From positions 1 to 64,000 of the forward strand of contig OMWK01000003.1 of the NCBI GenBank assembly GCA_900314745.1: a stretch of 64,000 nucleotides of DNA, written 5' to 3'. Position numbers and translations under genes: made by a program. The DNA comes from an uncultured Eubacteriales bacterium (GTDB taxonomy: Bacteria > Bacillota > Clostridia > Saccharofermentanales > Saccharofermentanaceae). Each line of letters begins with the position of its first letter. Position 1 is the stretch's first letter. Below, one piece after another: positions 31,773 through 42,128 of the stretch. A model generated the notes under the pieces. The model was given only the letters and a program-made list of their open reading frames with translations, did not search any database and was not told the origin of the DNA.

Positions 31773-32027
31773 GGACTTTTCTCGATTTTTCTTGATTTTT
31801 GTGTTGGGTGGGTTGATTTTTGTGTGGCAGCGGCTGGTGGTGGGGTGTTTTGGGGGTGGTCTTGGGTAGTTTTGGAGTGTTTTTCCGTTGTCGGATGACG
31901 TAATTACACTTGTTGAACGCCTCCACCGCCCCACTTCCCCTTCTTCAGTTGGCAACTGGAGCGGATGAAAGATAAAATGAGAAAGATATAATTAGTAAGT
32001 AATAATAAATAAGAAACTGAATAGTAT
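31773..32027 (+). other. Gene-free stretch with a G/T-rich, G-run-rich strand
   Basis: This completes the 384-bp gap between mraZ and the DUF1294 gene. From about 31785 to 31880 the plus strand is almost entirely G and T, with G-runs at 31806-31812, 31842-31845, 31852-31856 and 31864-31866 that could form a G-quadruplex. No credible open reading frame or known structured RNA was seen. A TATAAT-like box near 31987 may serve the plus-strand gene, but no good -35 box accompanies it. Confidence 0.6.
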
Positions 32028-32294
32028 ATGAAATATCTTCTGATCTACTTACTTGCAATGAGCGTAGTCACATTCGTGGTCTATGGCATAGACAAATACA
32101 AAGCCAAGAAGAATCTCTGGAGGATTCCCGAGAAGGTGCTCATCCTTCTCGCATTCATCGGCGGATCTCTCGGAGCACTCATCGGTATGGGAGTCTTTCA
32201 TCATAAGACCAGAAAGATAAAGTTCAAAGTACTCGTGCCCCTGGCACTGATAATTCATATAGGATTACTTATTGTTGTTGCTACACAGGTTTAA
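32028..32294 (+). CDS. DUF1294 family small membrane protein
   Basis: 88 residues. An N-terminal membrane segment (LLIYLLAMSVVTFVVYGIDK) leads into the family-typical YGIDKYKAKKNLWRIPEK, then LLAFIGGSLGALIGMGVFHHKTRK and a last hydrophobic segment. The GGxxGAxxGMxxFxHKTxK pattern is the DUF1294 signature. Function is unknown. It is a single-gene unit convergent with the glycan operon. No obvious ribosome binding site is present. Confidence 0.85.
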   Translation: MKYLLIYLLAMSVVTFVVYGIDKYKAKKNLWRIPEKVLILLAFIGGSLGALIGMGVFHHKTRKIKFKVLVPLALIIHIGLLIVVATQV

Positions 32295-32310
32295 GAATAA
32301 TAACGAGAAG

Positions 32311-32334
32311 AAGACCGCGGATACACGCGGTCTT
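32311..32334. terminator. Probable bidirectional terminator
   Basis: AAGACCGCG, six-base loop GATACA, CGCGGTCTT: a perfect 9-bp stem midway between two convergent genes. Both flanks carry only short T-rich tails (TCTTTGC on plus, TCTTCTTCTC on minus), so efficiency in either direction is uncertain. Confidence 0.6.
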
Positions 32335-32347
32335 TGCTATAGAGTTA

Positions 32348-33385
32348 CTATGTATTATTAATTGAGGATCGATACTTCTCGGAATCCCAATTCGTCAGGT
32401 AATCAATTTCTTCTCCACTTAACTCAGACGTACATTTACCACTAAGATATATTTTTGCAGAGTAGTCTAGTAGACTTACCGTATCGCGGGCTTTCTTCAC
32501 GTTCTCCGCTACAGCGAAACAACAACCATTCGCAACCACAGCTTTGATTTCACCATATCTGTTCCTGAATTCCTGAAGTGTTCGAACATAATCATCAGTA
32601 AGCAACGCAATCTTTGATCCGCAGTAAACAACACAATCAGGAGAATAAGCAAACTTCCACGCTCCTCCCGATCTTCCTACAGCTTCAGTAATAGCCGGAG
32701 TATCGGCTTTGTAAGCTATTGCTCCTGGCTGAACAGCCTGCAGAGCCTTGTAAAGCTCTATTCCAATCCGAGACACCTGCGAATCGAGACCTAACTCGCC
32801 GTTTATCCTATCCATTACCTCCTGATGCATTGCTATGACATCATCCATTGAATCAGCACTGACCAATAGACCATGACTGGCAAGAAAAACAACTTGTGCC
32901 TCTTTGTTGCGGAGCAGCGAATCATAATACACTTTGGCAAGTCGGATTCCCGGTGTTGCATATGGAATCTGGAGACAGTTTGGGAATATCTCCTTCAGAC
33001 GGCTCATCCCGTCATCTGAAGATGCAAGCAAAAGTACGCCCAAAGGATGGGTATGGATCGTATACTTGCGTGTAAGCGCATGAAGAAAAGTCTCTATAGA
33101 AGGACGCCTGCCGTCGATCAAAGATTTCTCAAGGATCATCTGTTCCTTATTATCTTCAATGGTTCCAACCGCAAACTGATCAGCAATGTATTTATAATCT
33201 ATAAGCGAATATCCACTCTCGGGAGTAACTTCAGTGAGTTGAACTCCTGAAGACTTGACGATCATATGACTATCATCAAGTTTTACGGATGTATTTCCTC
33301 CACCGGCCTGGACATAATCCTCATCCTGACCCACAAGTTTTGACATATAGGATAACTTCTCAGCCGCAGTTCGGTTATTAGACAT
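32348..33385 (-). CDS. Class II aldolase/adducin-fold protein
   Basis: About 345 residues. The N-terminal half has the class II aldolase pattern: DYVQAGGGNTSVKL (phosphate-binding GGGN), VKSSGVQL, and a zinc-type histidine pair in TIHTHPLGVLL. The C-terminal half resembles the rhamnulose-1-phosphate aldolase/dehydrogenase-like N-domain proteins. The frame extends to 33451 into the preceding gene, but the ATG at 33385 has GAGGTGA five bases upstream and is preferred. It is last in the nine-gene glycan operon. It may make or break a C-C bond in an unusual sugar or polyol precursor; the substrate is unknown. Confidence 0.8.
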   Translation of the reverse strand: MSNNRTAAEKLSYMSKLVGQDEDYVQAGGGNTSVKLDDSHMIVKSSGVQLTEVTPESGYSLIDYKYIADQFAVGTIEDNKEQMILEKSLIDGRRPSIETFLHALTRKYTIHTHPLGVLLLASSDDGMSRLKEIFPNCLQIPYATPGIRLAKVYYDSLLRNKEAQVVFLASHGLLVSADSMDDVIAMHQEVMDRINGELGLDSQVSRIGIELYKALQAVQPGAIAYKADTPAITEAVGRSGGAWKFAYSPDCVVYCGSKIALLTDDYVRTLQEFRNRYGEIKAVVANGCCFAVAENVKKARDTVSLLDYSAKIYLSGKCTSELSGEEIDYLTNWDSEKYRSSINNT

Positions 33386-33395
33386 ATGCGTCACC

Positions 33396-33998
33396 TCAGT
33401 CAAAGTATCTCTGCCACAATGGAATGTTATACGCCTTTGTGCAGATAGCATCGGGGATTATTCCCTGGCTGTTAAGCAATACAGCATGACTCTCGATATC
33501 TTCCGGCCTCCCCTGGAGTTCAGGAGATACGATACACAATCTGTAACCCAGATCTTTGATTTCCTTGTAATTCTCTGGAGTGAGTATGCATCGGGTAAAG
33601 CAATCAGCCCACACCCACTTGGCCTTGCCCGCCATATTACGAATGGTATCTATTCCTTCATATTCCGAGAAGCGTAATGCAGTATCTGTTATTCCATTCT
33701 GAGCTAAAAGGAATATCATTGGGAAGGAACTATCCAGGAAGAAATAATCCTTAACCCCTGCCTGCCTTACCATCTCTAGTGCTTTCCATTCAATCCTCTC
33801 GCTCTTAATATTCAGAATCATCGTTCCATGACGATATGACTTAAGATATGACTCAAAATCTTCGCCGTCTTTGAACGGATCATGTTCCATGTATATACGT
33901 CCATTAAGGTCGTCGCGAAGGTCTATCTCAACCCCATAGTTCTCCGGAATGTTATCGAGTTCAGAACTCTTATTAATGCGATGACAAATATACTGCAT
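33396..33998 (-). CDS. GDPD/PI-PLC-superfamily TIM-barrel-like protein
   Basis: 200 residues. The start ICHRIN, then GVEIDLRDDLNGRIYMEHDPF, matches the HR...E.D.......HD pattern of glycerophosphodiester phosphodiesterases, although it is shorter than the usual 240-260 residues. KYNIK-like (LNIKSER) and a late WADCFTR stretch fit the barrel core. It sits directly after a GT2 gene (adjacent stop and start) within the surface-glycan operon. Family members cleave phosphodiesters; here it may act on a glycan substituent or a nucleotide-activated intermediate. That role is inference. Confidence 0.65.
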   Translation of the reverse strand: MQYICHRINKSSELDNIPENYGVEIDLRDDLNGRIYMEHDPFKDGEDFESYLKSYRHGTMILNIKSERIEWKALEMVRQAGVKDYFFLDSSFPMIFLLAQNGITDTALRFSEYEGIDTIRNMAGKAKWVWADCFTRCILTPENYKEIKDLGYRLCIVSPELQGRPEDIESHAVLLNSQGIIPDAICTKAYNIPLWQRYFD

Positions 33999-34706
33999 TC
34001 ATTCCACCTTCCTTCTCTTAAGCCTAATACTGTAATCAAGAGTGCGTCTAATAAACTTCATTTTTGCAGAAGCACCTGTGTTCCACTTCGAACTGCCGTG
34101 TATACGCTCCGGAAATAAAACCGGGAACCTTATAATACGAAGACCACGCTTCTTTGCCATGTAAAAAGCGTACAGATCAAGAGAGAAATCGTCTGGCGGA
34201 TTCTTCCACTGTTCAAAAAAGCTGCGGCTGAACAAGTTAGGCTGAGCATTGATATCATTCATCCATTTCCCTGTAAGCAGTAGCTCAAGCACACTCATTC
34301 CAAAAGTAAAAAACACATCGCTCTTTGGTCTGCCCTTGCGATTACCCTTAACATAAAGCTCCTTGTCATAGGATTCATCAATAACTATATCCGCAGCATG
34401 CAGAACATCAGAAGGATCTGTCTGAAGATCCGCATGGGTCCACCCGAGATAATCTCCTTTGGCAGCACGAAGGCCGCTCATGATTCCAAAACCGTAACCC
34501 TGGTTCACGGCAACTGTCGTCTTCACAGCAAAAGGATACTTTTGTATCTCTCTATCGATAACCTCACCACTTCCGTCTGTCGATCCGTTATCGACTACTA
34601 TGAGTTCGATATCAGTTCTCTCCCCTATACTCTCAGAGAAACGCGCTAAAAGAAGAGGGATATTCTCTCGCTCGTTATAGCAGGGAACAACAATAGAAAA
34701 CAACAT
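33999..34706 (-). CDS. Family 2 glycosyltransferase
   Basis: GT-A enzyme with FSIVVPCYNERENIPLLLAR, then LIVVDNGSTDGSGE and GWTHADLQTDPSDV, the nucleotide and metal-binding strands of DPM1-like GT2 enzymes. It has about 235 residues and no C-terminal membrane segments. The ATG at 34706 overlaps the GtrA stop as TGATG; a GTG at 34712 is an alternative. With the GtrA-like flippase gene upstream it forms a Gtr-style pair (lipid-linked sugar made inside, then flipped out). Confidence 0.85.
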   Translation of the reverse strand: MLFSIVVPCYNERENIPLLLARFSESIGERTDIELIVVDNGSTDGSGEVIDREIQKYPFAVKTTVAVNQGYGFGIMSGLRAAKGDYLGWTHADLQTDPSDVLHAADIVIDESYDKELYVKGNRKGRPKSDVFFTFGMSVLELLLTGKWMNDINAQPNLFSRSFFEQWKNPPDDFSLDLYAFYMAKKRGLRIIRFPVLFPERIHGSSKWNTGASAKMKFIRRTLDYSIRLKRRKVE

Positions 34707-35104
34707 CAGCACGAATCTCCTCTCTTCGAAAAGACAAAGAATTTCTGACCGAGATAATTAATTATAGTACTTGTTCCGGTGGCTGCCAAAAAAGCGATTA
34801 TGCTGATATCAAGCCAATCCAAAACGGTGCGATTGATGAGCGCGTTGACCATAGCAGAGAACGCATACAGAATTATGTATTTAACAATTTCCATCGTCAA
34901 GAAAGTCCTGCTTTCAAACGTCCAAAGTTTATTAATAATGAATCCAACAGCTGCTCCCAACACATAAGATACAGCTTTCGAAGGCGTCACTGGAATACCA
35001 ATATACATCAGCAGGTGATAGCTCAGAAAATCAACAGCAACGGCTGATCCTCCGCCGACGAGGAATCGAAAGATTTCTTTTAAACTGAATCCGTTCCTGC
35101 TCAA
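34706..35104 (-). CDS. GtrA-like membrane protein
   Basis: 132 residues with four hydrophobic segments, starting FRFLVGGGSAVAVDFLSYHLL, the typical GtrA family opening, and with FIINKLWTFESR after segment two. GtrA proteins are thought to flip polyprenol-phosphate-linked sugars. The start is TTG at 35104 with AAAGGGG eight bases upstream; it overlaps the HAD gene stop as TTGA. Confidence 0.88.
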   Translation of the reverse strand: MSRNGFSLKEIFRFLVGGGSAVAVDFLSYHLLMYIGIPVTPSKAVSYVLGAAVGFIINKLWTFESRTFLTMEIVKYIILYAFSAMVNALINRTVLDWLDISIIAFLAATGTSTIINYLGQKFFVFSKRGDSC

Positions 35105-35784
35105 CCTATCATCCCCTTTAAAGCTTTCTCGAGTTCATAGAAATCCGAGACACGAACACTGTCATCTGATCCATTTCCAAACAGTATAGCCTTCATCCCA
35201 GCGTTTATAGCCCCCTGATAATCCTTAAGAGGATCATCACCAACCATTACTGCTTCTGAGGGATCACATACTCCCAGTTTTTTGAGTATCATTCTGAACG
35301 GAACTTCAGACGGCTTCTCGGCACCGCATTCCTCACTCGTTACAACCGCATCCGGATACTCATCAATACCTAGTCTTACTATTTTACGCATCTGAATATT
35401 AGCTGTAAGGTCCGTGCAAAACCCGATCTTTATCCCAGATAAACGAAGACTCTCAAGAACCTCGCAGACATTGTCATAGAGTTCTATGTTCTCAAGAAAT
35501 GCATTCCAATACGAATCGTACAGATCAAGAACATTAGCTGAGCTGTAGCATCCGGACAATTCACATATTCTCTGGGCATAAAGAAGCCTGTTATGACAAG
35601 CCGCAGTACCGGCGGTAATCGATTTGATATCTCTCTTTGCCTCTGCTAGCAGAGCATTAAACCCATCCCGTGTACAATCTGCTATCTTAGTGAAAGAAAG
35701 ATACATATTCTCAATTCCGGCACGATCACACGGATCATACGGATAAAAAGTATTATCTATGTCAAAAATAACCGCCCGTATCAT
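35101..35784 (-). CDS. HAD-superfamily hydrolase (subfamily IA-like)
   Basis: 227 residues. Motif I is VIFDIDNTFYPYD, with the nucleophile and acid aspartates at about residues 8 and 10. Motif II is FCTDLTAN, motif III has a conserved Lys (GAEKPSEVPF), and motif IV is MVGDDPLKDYQGA. A helical cap lies between motifs I and II, as in pyrimidine nucleotidase or sugar-phosphatase types. In the glycan operon it could dephosphorylate a sugar phosphate. It overlaps the upstream fusion gene by four bases. Confidence 0.85.
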   Translation of the reverse strand: MIRAVIFDIDNTFYPYDPCDRAGIENMYLSFTKIADCTRDGFNALLAEAKRDIKSITAGTAACHNRLLYAQRICELSGCYSSANVLDLYDSYWNAFLENIELYDNVCEVLESLRLSGIKIGFCTDLTANIQMRKIVRLGIDEYPDAVVTSEECGAEKPSEVPFRMILKKLGVCDPSEAVMVGDDPLKDYQGAINAGMKAILFGNGSDDSVRVSDFYELEKALKGMIG

Positions 35785-37913
35785 GACTCTTCCTTAAGTT
35801 TGGAATAGATAGACTGTACCAGAATCAGTTTCAGAACACCGTCGAAGGAAGTGTCAGCATAGAACTGTCTGCTTAAAAGATCATAACCGTTATCAAAGAT
35901 ATCCATAAATAAACCAGAGAAATCCACAGTCTCCATATGCTTATTCAAAGATGGCTTATATTCTATGATCTGATATCTGAAGTCATCCGACAACTCATAA
36001 GTAAACTCTGCCCCGGCGTCATGAAGGACAACCAAGAATCTGTTCATGTCAATCTGAGTGTTGAGCATAGCTCTCACTCCTACAGAGCCTGTTTTCTCAT
36101 CATCAATGAAATAATGAAGGATAACATCCGCAAAATCCTTCTGAGGATAAATATACTTATTTGCGTCTTCGTATCTGGATCTTATCTGACGGAGTATTTC
36201 TTCCCTACTATACCCTCTGGAATCCGCATCTCTATTGGTCTTCCACATAACACGGAGATCTTCTTCAGCCTCAGTATAGATCTTCAAATCTACAATACTT
36301 CGAAGTTGAGGCAGATAGAAGATATGCAGTCCTCCGATAGATATAAATCTGCAGGGACGGTAGGTATGTTTTTGGGTAAACTGGCCAGTATGGTGATCAT
36401 AATCTACTCTCTTGACCGATTCACCGTTTTTAAGACTTCGAATATCCATCGCCTGTCTGTACAGATAATTCGCCTGAGGATTAAGATGAGTATAATTTTT
36501 CCAGTTACTGTCTCCCCGCTCCCACTTATGGTCTCCGTCTCCTTCTATCTGAAGCAGATTATTAGGGCTGAACATGCTGCTAATGTGCTGAAGCAGTGTG
36601 CTCTTTCCCGTTCCACTATCTCCACAGATACCGATAACAAATGCGGAATCATGGAAACGGTATAGCCCGTTTCCGGCAATACAGAACTTGTGCATCAGAA
36701 AAATCATGTACACCATCACCGCGCTTAGCATTGTAAAAGATATATTTCTGAACAGTTCCGAATCACTCTTAAGGAAGCTGCAATCCGTTGTGAGATAGTA
36801 CAGATCGACAGAACCGTCAGACGCACTGTGAAAGAACACGAAAAACACCAAATAGAAAAGGTTCAGGGCAAAATAACAAAGATATGCATGACGATATCCG
36901 TTAGACCTGATCACAAAATCGGCAATAAACAGTAACACCCACATATACCATCCCGGCATTGGGACACACAATACGAGAAAGATAGAAAAGGTGAGGCCGC
37001 CTAGACCGAATAGGAGTTCATTGTTAATGAAATTAAGATTCATCACATAAAGGTAAAGCAGCAGGATGGCGCCTATAGATACGTAGAATCTCAAACTGCC
37101 AAATGACAGGAACAAAGAGAACACAGTTGACTGTGCTGTATTGAATACAACTCCATCAAGAAAGCCGGCTCCATAGAACGGCAGTAATCCAACAACCGTA
37201 AGCGCTGTCACCAGAGTCAAATAAACTGCTGCTCTGCTAAATCCTCTCTGTTTATACAGATACAGAACTATCAGCGGCACAACTACCGCTACATGAAATT
37301 TCGATAATAAGGCAAGTGCAAGAAACAGAACAGAGAGGTAATAATGCTTCTTCGACTGATCAATTGTAAGATATAAGAAAGACAGGAACAAAAAGGTCAT
37401 CGGAACTATGTCAAGCTGACCATGCATATAAGTCGCATACAAGGTAATCGGTGACATGAAGTACAGAACCAAGACTCTGAGTTTCTTTTCAGGAAAAGTC
37501 CGACAAAGCTGAATGAAGACAATAAGATCCATAACCAGCAAGGGAAGTTTAAATAGTATGTTATGCCAAAATAATGGAATCCCGCTCAGTAAAAGACACA
37601 GAGTTTCACTGACGGACATTACAAACAGCATTACAGGAGGATATGGGAAATCATAACTCAAACCTTGCTGATAAAACCACTCGTACGGATTCTTCAGTCC
37701 ATTGGTAAGGAAAGTCTGAACAAAAGGTTCAAACATCCGATTCTGATAATCGGATGAAAAAGCGCCGGCCATGACGAGCTTTACAAGCACCGCAAAAACG
37801 ATAAGTACATAAAGTACTCTCGTCTTATGCAAAGCCTCATAGATATTTTGGTAAAAACGCTTTGCTGTGTGTAAACCCATTCCAATAGGCAATTGTGTTC
37901 TCGTATCGCTCAT
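35781..37913 (-). CDS. Fusion: GT-C-like membrane glycosyltransferase with uridine-kinase-like domain
   Basis: 710 residues in two parts. Residues about 30-410 form a polytopic membrane domain with SSDYQNRMFEPF after the first segment and YMHGQLDIVPM in a loop, motifs of GT-C mannosyl/glucosyltransferases that use lipid-linked sugars. Residues about 424-650 form a soluble P-loop domain with VIGICGDSGTGKSTL (Walker A 431-439), HLNPQANYLYRQAMD and a basic RVMWKTNRDADSRGYSREE stretch, as in the phosphoribulokinase/uridine kinase family. A kinase fused behind a GT-C domain is not an arrangement I know. The start at 37913 overlaps the nucleotidyltransferase by 77 nt; later starts at 37880 or within the first 30 codons are possible. 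Confidence 0.75.
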   Translation of the reverse strand: MSDTRTQLPIGMGLHTAKRFYQNIYEALHKTRVLYVLIVFAVLVKLVMAGAFSSDYQNRMFEPFVQTFLTNGLKNPYEWFYQQGLSYDFPYPPVMLFVMSVSETLCLLLSGIPLFWHNILFKLPLLVMDLIVFIQLCRTFPEKKLRVLVLYFMSPITLYATYMHGQLDIVPMTFLFLSFLYLTIDQSKKHYYLSVLFLALALLSKFHVAVVVPLIVLYLYKQRGFSRAAVYLTLVTALTVVGLLPFYGAGFLDGVVFNTAQSTVFSLFLSFGSLRFYVSIGAILLLYLYVMNLNFINNELLFGLGGLTFSIFLVLCVPMPGWYMWVLLFIADFVIRSNGYRHAYLCYFALNLFYLVFFVFFHSASDGSVDLYYLTTDCSFLKSDSELFRNISFTMLSAVMVYMIFLMHKFCIAGNGLYRFHDSAFVIGICGDSGTGKSTLLQHISSMFSPNNLLQIEGDGDHKWERGDSNWKNYTHLNPQANYLYRQAMDIRSLKNGESVKRVDYDHHTGQFTQKHTYRPCRFISIGGLHIFYLPQLRSIVDLKIYTEAEEDLRVMWKTNRDADSRGYSREEILRQIRSRYEDANKYIYPQKDFADVILHYFIDDEKTGSVGVRAMLNTQIDMNRFLVVLHDAGAEFTYELSDDFRYQIIEYKPSLNKHMETVDFSGLFMDIFDNGYDLLSRQFYADTSFDGVLKLILVQSIYSKLKEES

Positions 37914-38649
37914 AATCTGCCGGGGTCCCCCATCCTATATATCGGTCAATCTCAAATACCTTTGTATTCAATCCCGCTTTAACACAATAATCAATCACTT
38001 TGTCTACATAAAACTCATTATTAACACGATCATTTGCTTCTATCATCTCTTCTGCACATCTAACAAAGTCACACCCACGCCTGAACCAGAAAGAAGCAAC
38101 TACTGCATGGTCGTTCAGAGGGTTATCGGATATTGGTTTCTTAACAGATACACCTGTTACCGTATCACTGTCCTCCTCTGTACGCACCCAACCGTATGCA
38201 TTGGGATTGACTAATACCGAATCGTCATGTCTGTAAGTAAACACCAGAACATCAGAGTCCGAACAGGCAGCGTCAAATCTTTCTTTGTCCCAAACCATGC
38301 CATTATCGCATCCTGCAATAAACAACGGATCATTGTTATTGATCATGTCTTTGGCCAGAAGGCAGGTACAAGCCTGACCTTCAGTAAGGTAGCCTACTCC
38401 AATAATCTCAGCATCCGGATAGTATTTCAACAGTTCGGGGCGAATATCGCATACATAATCCGTACGTATGATAAAGATCCGCTTATCAGCAGTCCCTGTA
38501 CTTTCGGGAACATCATGCATAGCACACACTACCATAGGGTAGCGTTTCCCATCTCGACGTTCCGTTGTGAGGATCAGAGGTTTCAATTGAGGATATCCGG
38601 CATCTGCGAACCTTTTACCCGCTCCTGCCATTGGCATAAGAATATTCAT
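37837..38649 (-). CDS. Sugar-phosphate nucleotidyltransferase-like protein
   Basis: 270 residues with the NTP-transferase N-terminus MNILMPMAGAGKRFADAGYP, then LKPLI, a metal-binding FIAGCDNGMVW and a C-terminal IGWGTPADYERYE. It should activate a sugar or polyol phosphate with a nucleotide. It is a paralogue of the gene just upstream and probably arose by duplication with divergence. Its ATG overlaps that gene's stop by four bases, with AGGAGA upstream. The nucleotide and sugar are unknown. Confidence 0.85.
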   Translation of the reverse strand: MNILMPMAGAGKRFADAGYPQLKPLILTTERRDGKRYPMVVCAMHDVPESTGTADKRIFIIRTDYVCDIRPELLKYYPDAEIIGVGYLTEGQACTCLLAKDMINNNDPLFIAGCDNGMVWDKERFDAACSDSDVLVFTYRHDDSVLVNPNAYGWVRTEEDSDTVTGVSVKKPISDNPLNDHAVVASFWFRRGCDFVRCAEEMIEANDRVNNEFYVDKVIDYCVKAGLNTKVFEIDRYIGWGTPADYERYENTIAYWNGFTHSKAFLPKYL

Positions 38650-39425
38650 TGATCATATCTCCTGGTATATTCAGTCCAAAACAAATAATCTTTAAGATCT
38701 TCAGGGGTACCCCATTGACAGAAGTATCGTAATACAACAGGACACCAGACCTTAAGTCCATCCTGAACCATAAACTGATACGGCAAACTTGCATAATGCT
38801 CGCCGTTTAAAGCCAATCCGTCATCGATCTGTCTTTTGAAATAAGTCTTTAGGATCTCACCGGTTCTAAAATAATAAACTCCGGGAGAATGTCTCGACTT
38901 AGTCTTGTCCGACTCAAATGAATACTTCTCCCTTATCTCGATAAGGTTATCCTGTTCATCAGTAAGGCATGATGCATACAGATTCTTAATCGGTATAAGA
39001 TTAGGATGAAATCCGCTATAACATGGAACCGCACCGTCACACCCCCGCCCTAATGCGGCCTTACAAAACGAATCATAATCCCAATCCTGATAGAAATCAC
39101 AATAATTTACTATACATGGCTCATCGTTCTTTATCCTGTCAGAGGCCCTTAACACATCATATACAGGGCCTTTCTTCACCCAGTCTCCAAGTGCGACTAT
39201 CTGCCCTTCAGGGGCAATACGGCGAAGCGTCGCTTCAAGATCAGGTATCGTGTTCAGATGCTCCTCCCGGCAAATGAACGTAAAATTGTTCTCCCCAGGA
39301 TACATGCCTCTTACTATCCATTCTATAATGGGCATACCCTGAACACGGATCAGAGGCTTGAGGACCTTATAACCGGCAGCAACAAAACGCGATCCATAAC
39401 CTGTCATTGGAATGATAATATTCAA
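38646..39425 (-). CDS. Sugar-phosphate nucleotidyltransferase-like protein (second copy)
   Basis: 259 residues with MNIIIPMTGYGSRFVAAGYK, LKPLIRVQG and a metal site IVNYCDFYQDWD; the C-terminus has CQWGTPEDLKDY. The first metal-binding motif differs from the paralogue (CDFYQDW against CDNGMVW), so substrates may differ. The start is TTG at 39425 with GAGAGGTGATAG upstream, overlapping the membrane protein stop as TTGA. Confidence 0.82.
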   Translation of the reverse strand: MNIIIPMTGYGSRFVAAGYKVLKPLIRVQGMPIIEWIVRGMYPGENNFTFICREEHLNTIPDLEATLRRIAPEGQIVALGDWVKKGPVYDVLRASDRIKNDEPCIVNYCDFYQDWDYDSFCKAALGRGCDGAVPCYSGFHPNLIPIKNLYASCLTDEQDNLIEIREKYSFESDKTKSRHSPGVYYFRTGEILKTYFKRQIDDGLALNGEHYASLPYQFMVQDGLKVWCPVVLRYFCQWGTPEDLKDYLFWTEYTRRYDQ

Positions 39426-41599
39426 TTACTATCACCTCTCTTTATCGATGATATCCGCACCATGAAGATAATAATGGCAGCAGTAAGTACTATTTCAAAT
39501 CCAAATGCAACAGTACAAACAGGATCCTTATAGGTCAGATATACTGTACCTCTTTGTCCATCAGGAGATATTATTATCGTATTACCGGCATCATTCTCCT
39601 TCGTCTCCAGTGAATACGTTCCATCTTCATTGACTACATATGCATAAAGAGCAGGATCGTATATGAATGAGAGCGTATATTCATCAGCTCCTGTAGACTG
39701 AAAGGATAACTTGTCCATTCTCTCTGACAGAAGTGGAATGGCATTCTCCCCATCTGTACAGAGACTATCGATACCACCAAGAACTATCACATCAAACTTA
39801 TCATCGGCAGGAATGACATCTTCAACTGTTATCGAAGGCAACGAGTTGAATGCTTCCAGTAACTCTGGAGTCCTGTAACTCGGAGTCCCATCCTCCGACA
39901 AATAGTCAATCCTTTGAACAAAGATATAGCGAACTGCATTCTGACGAAGCTGCATTTCCAATTCTTCAGGATACCTATCTGCGTTGTTAATGAAATAATT
40001 GTTATTCCCGATATTCATACGTCTGGTATAAGAATCCAAAGGTGAATAAATCAATGAAAAACTTTCAAGACAATCAGTACTTGCCGGAATCTCATAAGCA
40101 CTAAGGGAATAAACCCCCATAGTAGTAGAGAAATTACGAGTGAAACCATTCCAATAGTGGAAAGGCTCTACTGATTTAGAATATGAGGCATAACGGTATA
40201 ATGAAGTATCCCAGTTTATCCTTGAGATTGTTTCTTGGCCATATGAATATTCCTCTTCGACAGTAAGATATTCAGTGTCACGAAAAATACCCGTCACTAC
40301 CTGAACAACAAAGTAATTGTTTATCAAACCTAAAACTATAAACAGGCTGCCTACAGCGATGGCAGCTTTATATAGTTTTGTAGGGAAACTAGGAACGAAC
40401 AATACAGTCATTACAGCCAAAAGCGGTTCAACTACAAATATGACTTTGAAAAGGAATCTGAATTTACCAATCACCGGAAGTTTGGATAACAAGATCGCGA
40501 TTATCCCGCCCGAAGAAAATGATATGAAGAAAAGCAGACAAATAACCATCCCCACCATCAGCTGACTATTGGGTGTATTGCAAACAGATTTATACCAACC
40601 CTTAACGTCTATCTTTCTATAGTCTTTACGTAGGAAATATACGATCATTCCGATAATAGTTACCAGCCAAAATGCAGCAAAGAAACCATTGAACAACCAC
40701 GTATAGTCCGTTCTTCCAATTAGGGAACTGATGAAATGAAGATGCAACACATCAAATGTTTCAAAAATACCCATAGGCATTAATGCACCTAATGATAATT
40801 CAAAAACAGGTATCTCTGATGACAAAAACTGATTACTGCCAAACGATTCAGAAGAACGCATCAACAGCAGAAAGAACGGAGAAGAAAGAATCAAACCAAT
40901 TACACCGTTTGAAATCAATACTTTTATCATTCTGTAGTTACGAAAAACAACAAATGATAAACACAAAATGCCATATAACATATAGTGATAACAAGTATAT
41001 TGAACATTCCCGAATAGAATTTCAAAAGCCAATACTAATCCACATCCAAAATACTCAGATTTGGTTCCCCTTAACTTTATAAACACATACAGCAAGAGCG
41101 GGATAAAAAACTGATTGTTGAATGCATAATACCAATAACAAACACTGAAAAATGAAGATATTACTGAATATGCAAGTGTGAAAATAGCACACTCGCGGAT
41201 ACTACGTTTCAATTCATAGCACAACCAAAAGAAAACTGTATTTCCCATACCAAACAACAGAGCCAGATATACAGTTATTGTATTGATTGAACTTGAGATG
41301 GAATGGGATAACAAATAAGAAACCAGCATTAGAGGATTCATAATGCTGTAATATCCGGGATTAGCTATCGAAAAGCCTTTCAGCTGAAAGAAATCATAGA
41401 TTGGCATATGACCTGTGTGAAAAAAATCACTATATGCCCGTTCAATAACAGGGAACCACTGAGTACGATTGTCATCGATAAGGAATGCTTCAGGATCAAA
41501 ATGCCCCCAAATACCGATGAGCAGTAAAGAGACGCACATAACGCTTATTGAATAAAGCCACTTTTTCCATCTCTGCAATTCAATATCACAATTATTCAC
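39422..41599 (-). CDS. Large polytopic membrane protein, YfhO/GT-C-like
   Basis: 725 residues. It has about 12 membrane segments in the first 430 residues, a large extracytoplasmic domain (about 440-690) and a last segment at about 700-716. The first loop has LIDDNRTQWFPVIERAY, then MPIYDFFQLKGFSI, like YfhO and related GT-C proteins that glycosylate wall polymers. The start appears to be GTG at 41599, with GAGGTG about ten bases upstream. It is the first gene of the glycan operon. The sequence is AT-rich relative to its neighbours. Confidence 0.7.
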   Translation of the reverse strand: MNNCDIELQRWKKWLYSISVMCVSLLLIGIWGHFDPEAFLIDDNRTQWFPVIERAYSDFFHTGHMPIYDFFQLKGFSIANPGYYSIMNPLMLVSYLLSHSISSSINTITVYLALLFGMGNTVFFWLCYELKRSIRECAIFTLAYSVISSFFSVCYWYYAFNNQFFIPLLLYVFIKLRGTKSEYFGCGLVLAFEILFGNVQYTCYHYMLYGILCLSFVVFRNYRMIKVLISNGVIGLILSSPFFLLLMRSSESFGSNQFLSSEIPVFELSLGALMPMGIFETFDVLHLHFISSLIGRTDYTWLFNGFFAAFWLVTIIGMIVYFLRKDYRKIDVKGWYKSVCNTPNSQLMVGMVICLLFFISFSSGGIIAILLSKLPVIGKFRFLFKVIFVVEPLLAVMTVLFVPSFPTKLYKAAIAVGSLFIVLGLINNYFVVQVVTGIFRDTEYLTVEEEYSYGQETISRINWDTSLYRYASYSKSVEPFHYWNGFTRNFSTTMGVYSLSAYEIPASTDCLESFSLIYSPLDSYTRRMNIGNNNYFINNADRYPEELEMQLRQNAVRYIFVQRIDYLSEDGTPSYRTPELLEAFNSLPSITVEDVIPADDKFDVIVLGGIDSLCTDGENAIPLLSERMDKLSFQSTGADEYTLSFIYDPALYAYVVNEDGTYSLETKENDAGNTIIISPDGQRGTVYLTYKDPVCTVAFGFEIVLTAAIIIFMVRISSIKRGDSN

Positions 41600-41616
41600 T
41601 GCGCGTCACACCTCAG

Positions 41617-41645
41617 TGGATATTATAATACACACAAGCTATAAT
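41617..41645 (+). promoter_or_regulatory. Promoter placing the transcription start at the tadA start codon
   Basis: TGGATA (41617-41622), 17 bases, then a perfect TATAAT (41640-41645). The start codon of tadA begins six bases later, which is where transcription normally starts. A second TATAAT at 41624-41629 has no matching -35 box. Confidence 0.6.
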
Positions 41646-41651
41646 CGCATC

Positions 41652-42128
41652 ATGGAAGATATTCACAACAAGTTCATGAAGGCCGCGCTCAAAGAAGCGC
41701 AGAAAGCTTACGAGAAGAAGGAATGTCCCATCGGATGCGTTATCGTCAAAGACGGCAAGGTGTTCGTTAGGGCACACAACCTTAAACTCACTAAGTCAAA
41801 TGCACTGATGCACGCAGAAGTAATTGCTATCGACAAAGCGTGCAAGAAGCTCGGCGACTGGCGACTTAATGATATGGATATGTATGTAACGCTCGAACCT
41901 TGTACGATGTGTTCGGGTGCAATCGTTCAGTCGAGAATCCGCAAGGTCTACTTCGGAGCATACGAACCCAAGTCAGGAGCGGTATGCTCATGTAACGATA
42001 TCTTCAATGTCGAGCACGGCCATAACCACAAGGTCGAGTTCGAAGGCGGAGTCATGGAAGAAGAATGTAGCGAATTGATGCTCAAATTCTTCCAGGAGAT
42101 GAGAGAAAGAAACCGCCGCAATAAATAA
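41652..42128 (+). CDS. tadA: tRNA-specific adenosine deaminase
   Basis: Converts A34 to inosine in tRNA-Arg. Zinc and catalytic residues are His54 and Glu56 (MHAEVIAI) and Cys84 and Cys87 (LEPCTMCSG). About 158 residues from the ATG at 41652. The frame opens with a GTG at 41616, but the family N-terminus begins at the ATG (MEDIHNKFMKAAL). No Shine-Dalgarno is present before the ATG, and the promoter lies so close that the message may be leaderless. It is convergent with addA. Confidence 0.93.
   Translation: MEDIHNKFMKAALKEAQKAYEKKECPIGCVIVKDGKVFVRAHNLKLTKSNALMHAEVIAIDKACKKLGDWRLNDMDMYVTLEPCTMCSGAIVQSRIRKVYFGAYEPKSGAVCSCNDIFNVEHGHNHKVEFEGGVMEEECSELMLKFFQEMRERNRRNK

Follow-up and report, generated by a model that had tools for sequence, protein, structure and literature searches.

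A minus-strand gene in the analyzed window (64,000 nucleotides of DNA from an uncultured Eubacteriales bacterium) encodes a polytopic GT-C-like glycosyltransferase domain joined in one frame to a P-loop kinase domain, and the kinase is of the phosphoribulokinase (PRK) lineage, not of uridine kinase descent. We propose that the fusion is an enzyme with two functions, encoded in an operon devoted to surface glycosylation, in which an active kinase and the transferase serve one shared pathway, and we put the probability of this reading at about one half. Each half is of a known kind. Their combination, and the placement of a kinase of PRK lineage within a glycan operon, were found undescribed in the open literature; the initial annotation had likewise known of no protein of this design, and no description of one was found in open-access publications.

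Architecture of the fusion protein

The coordinates first assigned to the fusion gene are correct, but its strand had been left out: the plus strand across 35781–37913 contains stop codons throughout, and the open reading frame lies on the minus strand. Translation from the first ATG creates a 77-base overlap with the upstream gene. Since relatives start ~25 codons downstream of this ATG, the window protein is probably ~685 residues long (Table 1). The predicted design, a polytopic domain with an HGQLD motif followed by a complete P-loop kinase domain, is borne out by the reading frame, the Pfam match and the AlphaFold2 folds alike, and both motifs are where they had been placed, with the P-loop GDSGTGKST at residues 431–439. 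The AlphaFold2 model, made with 37 relatives, has a mean pLDDT of 89 over both domains.

Table 1. Features of the fusion gene and its operon in the window
Feature	Position	Strand	Remarks
Large polytopic membrane protein, 725 aa	39422..41599	-	Optional upstream member; in 7 of the other loci; no Pfam family
Nucleotidyltransferase 1, 259 aa, MobA-like NTP transferase	38646..39425	-	Fused to nucleotidyltransferase 2 in many relatives
Nucleotidyltransferase 2, 270 aa	37837..38649	-	G-x-G-x-R-F and KP motifs
GT-C/PRK-like kinase fusion gene	35781..37913	-	710 aa from first ATG; probable true start near 37832-37841
GT-C membrane domain	36660..37838	-	HGQLD at ORF residues 164-168 (bases about 37410-37424); fold match; weak PMT_2
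PRK-like kinase domain and PRK-type C-terminal region	35784..36650	-	Walker A at ORF residues 431-439; PF00485; PRK PDB matches to 1.8e-34
HAD phosphatase closest to ribulose-1,5-bisphosphate 5-phosphatase	35101..35784	-	NCBIfam NF053830
GtrA-type polyprenyl-phosphate-sugar flippase	34706..35104	-	PF04138 1.7e-20
GT2, dolichol-phosphate-mannose-synthase/ArnC-like	33999..34712	-	PF00535 1.6e-20; ArnC model 54 bits
200-aa protein, glycerophosphodiester-phosphodiesterase (GDPD) fold	33396..33998	-	AlphaFold2 pLDDT 96; GDPD Z 17.4
Class II (zinc) aldolase	32348..33451	-	Likely start about 33385; PF00596 1.8e-17
Terminator-like hairpin, 9 pairs, right after aldolase	32311..32334	-	Consensus match; hairpin number in region not above shuffles

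The membrane half of the model matches ALG3 (Z 26.6), GPI mannosyltransferase I (Z 26.0) and ALG6 (Z 24.4). A GT-C fold is common to the fusion and to ALG3, PIG-M, ALG6 and the bacterial ArnT and PimE (Z 18–27), but sequence identity to these enzymes is only 11–16%, and the fusion differs from them in its C-terminal kinase. ALG3, PIG-M and ALG6 use polyprenyl-phosphate sugars (Dol-P-sugars), a likeness that fits the DPMS-like GT2 and the GtrA in the operon. These two adjacent genes suggest an Und-P-sugar as the GT-C donor, supplied by partner GT2 and flippase genes as for the Dol-P-sugar GT-C enzymes. The Asp of HGQLD is invariant among the fusions, and the acidic residue of the first external loop is Asp in 35 of 43.

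Hydropathy yields 13 candidate helices, a count that alone does not place the C-terminus. However, a basic stretch ahead of the kinase (K+R 2.8, D+E 0.4) and an acidic loop preceding that stretch favor a cytoplasmic kinase; judged by this charge pattern, the cytoplasmic location proposed in the initial annotation is the most likely one.

A conserved operon surrounds the fusion gene

The main evidence on function is a conserved operon that had gone unmentioned in the initial annotation. In the window, its genes occupy the minus strand from 41599 to 32348, each overlapping or abutting the next, with addAB-like genes flanking the island at one end and the mraZ cell-division cluster at the opposite end. 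The operon (32000–42000) has 36–43% GC, like the addAB-side flank and below the 47–51% of the cell-division cluster, and it is missing from nearly all same-genus genomes searched.

The partner genes co-occur in order across 42 loci that carry relatives of the fusion. Nucleotidyltransferases are neighbors at 39 of these, the aldolase and the GT2 (once fused) at 38 each, the GDPD-like gene at 37, the HAD gene at 32, and GtrA at 25; many of the gaps are contig ends. GtrA is missing from some complete operons. For three loci that lack a GDPD-like neighbor, such a gene lies elsewhere in the genome, and in one case (L062) the region around it forms a second operon that includes a fusion of its own.

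Several variants of this arrangement are seen. The two nucleotidyltransferases are fused (524–560 aa) in many Lachnospiraceae, and a Melainabacteria MAG (L078, 12819–15119) encodes both of them and the GT2 in one 766-aa frame. At two loci (L069, 472–1413; L073, 9051–9992), the gene directly before the fusion encodes an NAD-dependent epimerase that resembles UDP-glucuronate decarboxylase. A further kind of operon (L089, 7226–10277; L090, 9653–12729) has a GDPD homologue along with an HAD, a pair of nucleotidyltransferases and a cupin in the vicinity of LicD-like genes, and it may share a sub-module with the fusion operon.

The best model for the window HAD is NF053830 (ribulose-1,5-bisphosphate 5-phosphatase), on which it scores about 201–202 bits, under the cut-off of 330; the next HAD of the same genome scores 46 bits, and all 14 operon HADs tested match this model. 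The aldolase is nearer by model scores to rhamnulose-phosphate aldolases than to ribulose-1-phosphate aldolase. Residues E97, H110, H112 and H170 are invariant among its relatives, and the three His and the Glu presumably have the role they have in the FucA family. The 200-aa protein, of GDPD fold, has no match by sequence in Pfam or the PDB, and its HR, ExD and H residues are invariant; its family (33396–33998) is linked to this operon in those genomes that were checked.

Adjacent genes for a DPMS-like GT2, a GtrA and a membrane transferase also make up the three-component GtrA/GtrB/transferase systems. The fusion operon goes beyond these in its kinase, HAD, aldolase, two nucleotidyltransferases and GDPD-like protein and, unlike them, is not always accompanied by GtrA.

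A proposed route to a surface sugar

Membership of the operon genes in one pathway is well supported; the sugar and the order of the reactions we infer. The kinase, HAD and aldolase are proposed as precursor makers because they resemble enzymes of pentulose phosphates and bisphosphates, and a polyprenyl-phosphate glycosylation route is proposed because the GT2, GtrA and ALG3-like GT-C are parts of one. On the cytoplasmic side, the kinase would add a phosphate at the primary hydroxyl group of a pentulose-5-phosphate-like sugar, giving a bisphosphate; the HAD would take off the other phosphate, leaving a ketose-1-phosphate on which the class II aldolase would act in either direction. The two nucleotidyltransferases would make a nucleotide-activated unit, to be loaded by the GT2 on undecaprenyl phosphate and flipped by GtrA, and the GT-C domain would transfer this unit to a glycan or other acceptor outside. 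Through the fusion, supply of the precursor would be coupled to the last transferase. Besides the changes in the kinase described below, points that count against the proposal are the HAD score under the cut-off, the affinity of the aldolase to rhamnulose-phosphate aldolases, the incomplete conservation of the Asp in the first external loop of the GT-C domain and the complete operons that have no GtrA.

Within this scheme, the pentulose-bisphosphate chemistry especially is tentative. It is possible, and we put it forward with the same reserve, that a PRK-lineage kinase acts here outside carbon fixation, with a pentulose-bisphosphate-type intermediate becoming a nucleotide-activated, undecaprenyl-linked unit that the fused GT-C transfers at the surface; if true, this would be a new route to a surface sugar. 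In haloarchaea, a ribulose-1,5-bisphosphate 5-phosphatase and then a FucA-type class II aldolase act in sequence (PMC9700705). That non-carboxylating pentose bisphosphate pathway shares with the fusion operon a class II aldolase and the lineage of its HAD phosphatase. Unlike the operon, it serves nucleoside catabolism, uses a ribose-1-phosphate kinase and R15P isomerase, and includes neither PRK nor glycosylation genes (PMC9700705).

The kinase domain

The initial annotation had allowed that the C-terminal domain might lack a kinase fold. Domain search and structure prediction, the checks it had proposed, identify one: Pfam PRK (PF00485) matches residues 426–600 (E 1.3e-33), and the kinase half of the AlphaFold2 model superposes on PRK 9qkp over 282 residues (Z 29.9, 2.4 Å). 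The fold of the kinase and its C-terminal region is common to PRKs of cyanobacterial, archaeal and plant type (9qkp, 5b3f, 6hzk; Z 22–30), and the PRK motifs Walker A, D-x-x-H...R, Y-x-H, GLH and K..RD...R are kept. Using the ribulose-5-phosphate- and ATP-binding residues of Kono et al. (PMC5241800), we find the equivalents of MhPRK H55, R59, Y98, H100, K151 and R154 invariant in 42–43 of 43 fusions, and those of D42 and D169 likewise. No scorable fusion keeps the Walker-B glutamate (IEGLH in PRK); C, S, G, N, V or I stands in its place. A deep clade (L076–L079) has the P-loop GDSGSGKHT, with His at the metal-binding Ser/Thr place, and is without the EGDGDH glutamate.

Given the glutamate loss and the P-loop of L076–L079, kinase activity may be altered or lost. 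The PRK-like domain could then serve as a sensor, with weak or no catalytic activity, that gates the GT-C transferase and binds ATP together with a sugar phosphate. We regard this as doubtful: both changes would suit a sensor, but the catalytic Asp, the Lys and the Arg, His and Tyr substrate residues are among those invariant in 42–43 of 43 fusions, and Arg takes the Walker-B position in L005 and L007, two stand-alone PRKs from genomes with Rubisco. Thus, loss of this glutamate is no proof of inactivity, nor is the residue strictly defining. It is unlikely that the kinase instead works at the cytoplasmic face on a sugar that is lipid-linked or serves as acceptor, decorating it with a phosphate that would later stay in place or be taken off by the HAD. 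Tethering of the kinase to the membrane is compatible with such a substrate, as is the presence in the operon of two phosphate-removing folds (GDPD-like and HAD), but the residues that form the pocket for a small sugar phosphate are invariant as in PRK.

The assignment of the kinase to the PRK lineage follows from sequence scores, structure and phylogeny together. The fusion kinase scores 172 bits on NCBIfam PRK07429 versus 69–75 bits on the udk models, reaching neither the curated PRK cut-off (NF005655, 236 bits) nor those of udk (180–220). Fusion kinases form a single clade (support 0.87) joined to stand-alone PRKs, and the two together split from uridine kinases with support of 0.98–1.0. 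The domain had been called uridine-kinase-like, with regeneration of UMP or UDP for the transferase as one suggested role. A uridine/cytidine kinase would belong to the same Pfam family and does account for some model score, but we reject this reading as very improbable on the higher PRK score and the tree, and the sugar-phosphate residues of PRK are retained as well. The source cell encodes another protein of the PRK/uridine kinase family.

PRK is viewed as a hallmark of carbon fixation through ribulose bisphosphate (PMC5241800), and the five nearest stand-alone PRKs are all in Rubisco genomes, within about 2.5 kb of Rubisco in four. Despite its lineage, the fusion kinase almost certainly does not provide Rubisco with ribulose-1,5-bisphosphate as a Calvin-type PRK would: none of the four fusion genomes tested (G000, G355, G923, G946) has Rubisco, and the kinase is joined to a membrane glycosyltransferase within a glycan operon. 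The finding of a conserved PRK-lineage kinase fused to a surface glycosyltransferase in Rubisco-less genomes suggests a further use of PRK chemistry, and labeling the domain as a uridine kinase or as phosphoribulokinase would mislead metabolic reconstructions.

Distribution of the fusion

We searched 84,980 species genomes with two query peptides taken from the membrane half and found relatives at the 42 loci noted above, in several phyla and essentially all with the same fusion. Hosts are mostly Lachnospiraceae and Oscillospiraceae, together with Cohnella and MAGs labelled Cloacimonadota, Omnitrophota, Melainabacteria and Deltaproteobacteria. Every locus includes the kinase half, and most are single frames of 636–746 aa. 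One gene is split by a frameshift (L074), in one (L075) tblastn places the kinase part in frame but a stop interrupts the ORF, and one ends at a contig end (L079). This survey, which the initial annotation had envisaged for fused or adjacent split genes, returned no GT-C relative without a kinase. That a sequencing or assembly error joined two genes, a concern raised with the original description, has a negligible probability and is rejected, as the same fused order at 42 loci in public genomes recurs across many independent assemblies, isolates included; by these comparisons the fusion is judged genuine.

The fusion is rare: there is one further full-length case among 398 genomes of the phylum, and across 188 genomes of the order nothing matched at full length outside its own genome. 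This rarity suggests horizontal spread. Phages gave only weak kinase-domain matches, and plasmids, queried with the aldolase, gave only distant aldolases. Gut Clostridia carry the operon, including the isolates Ruminococcus sp. YE71 and Velocimicrobium porci; since so compact an operon recurs in isolates, its product can be sought directly.
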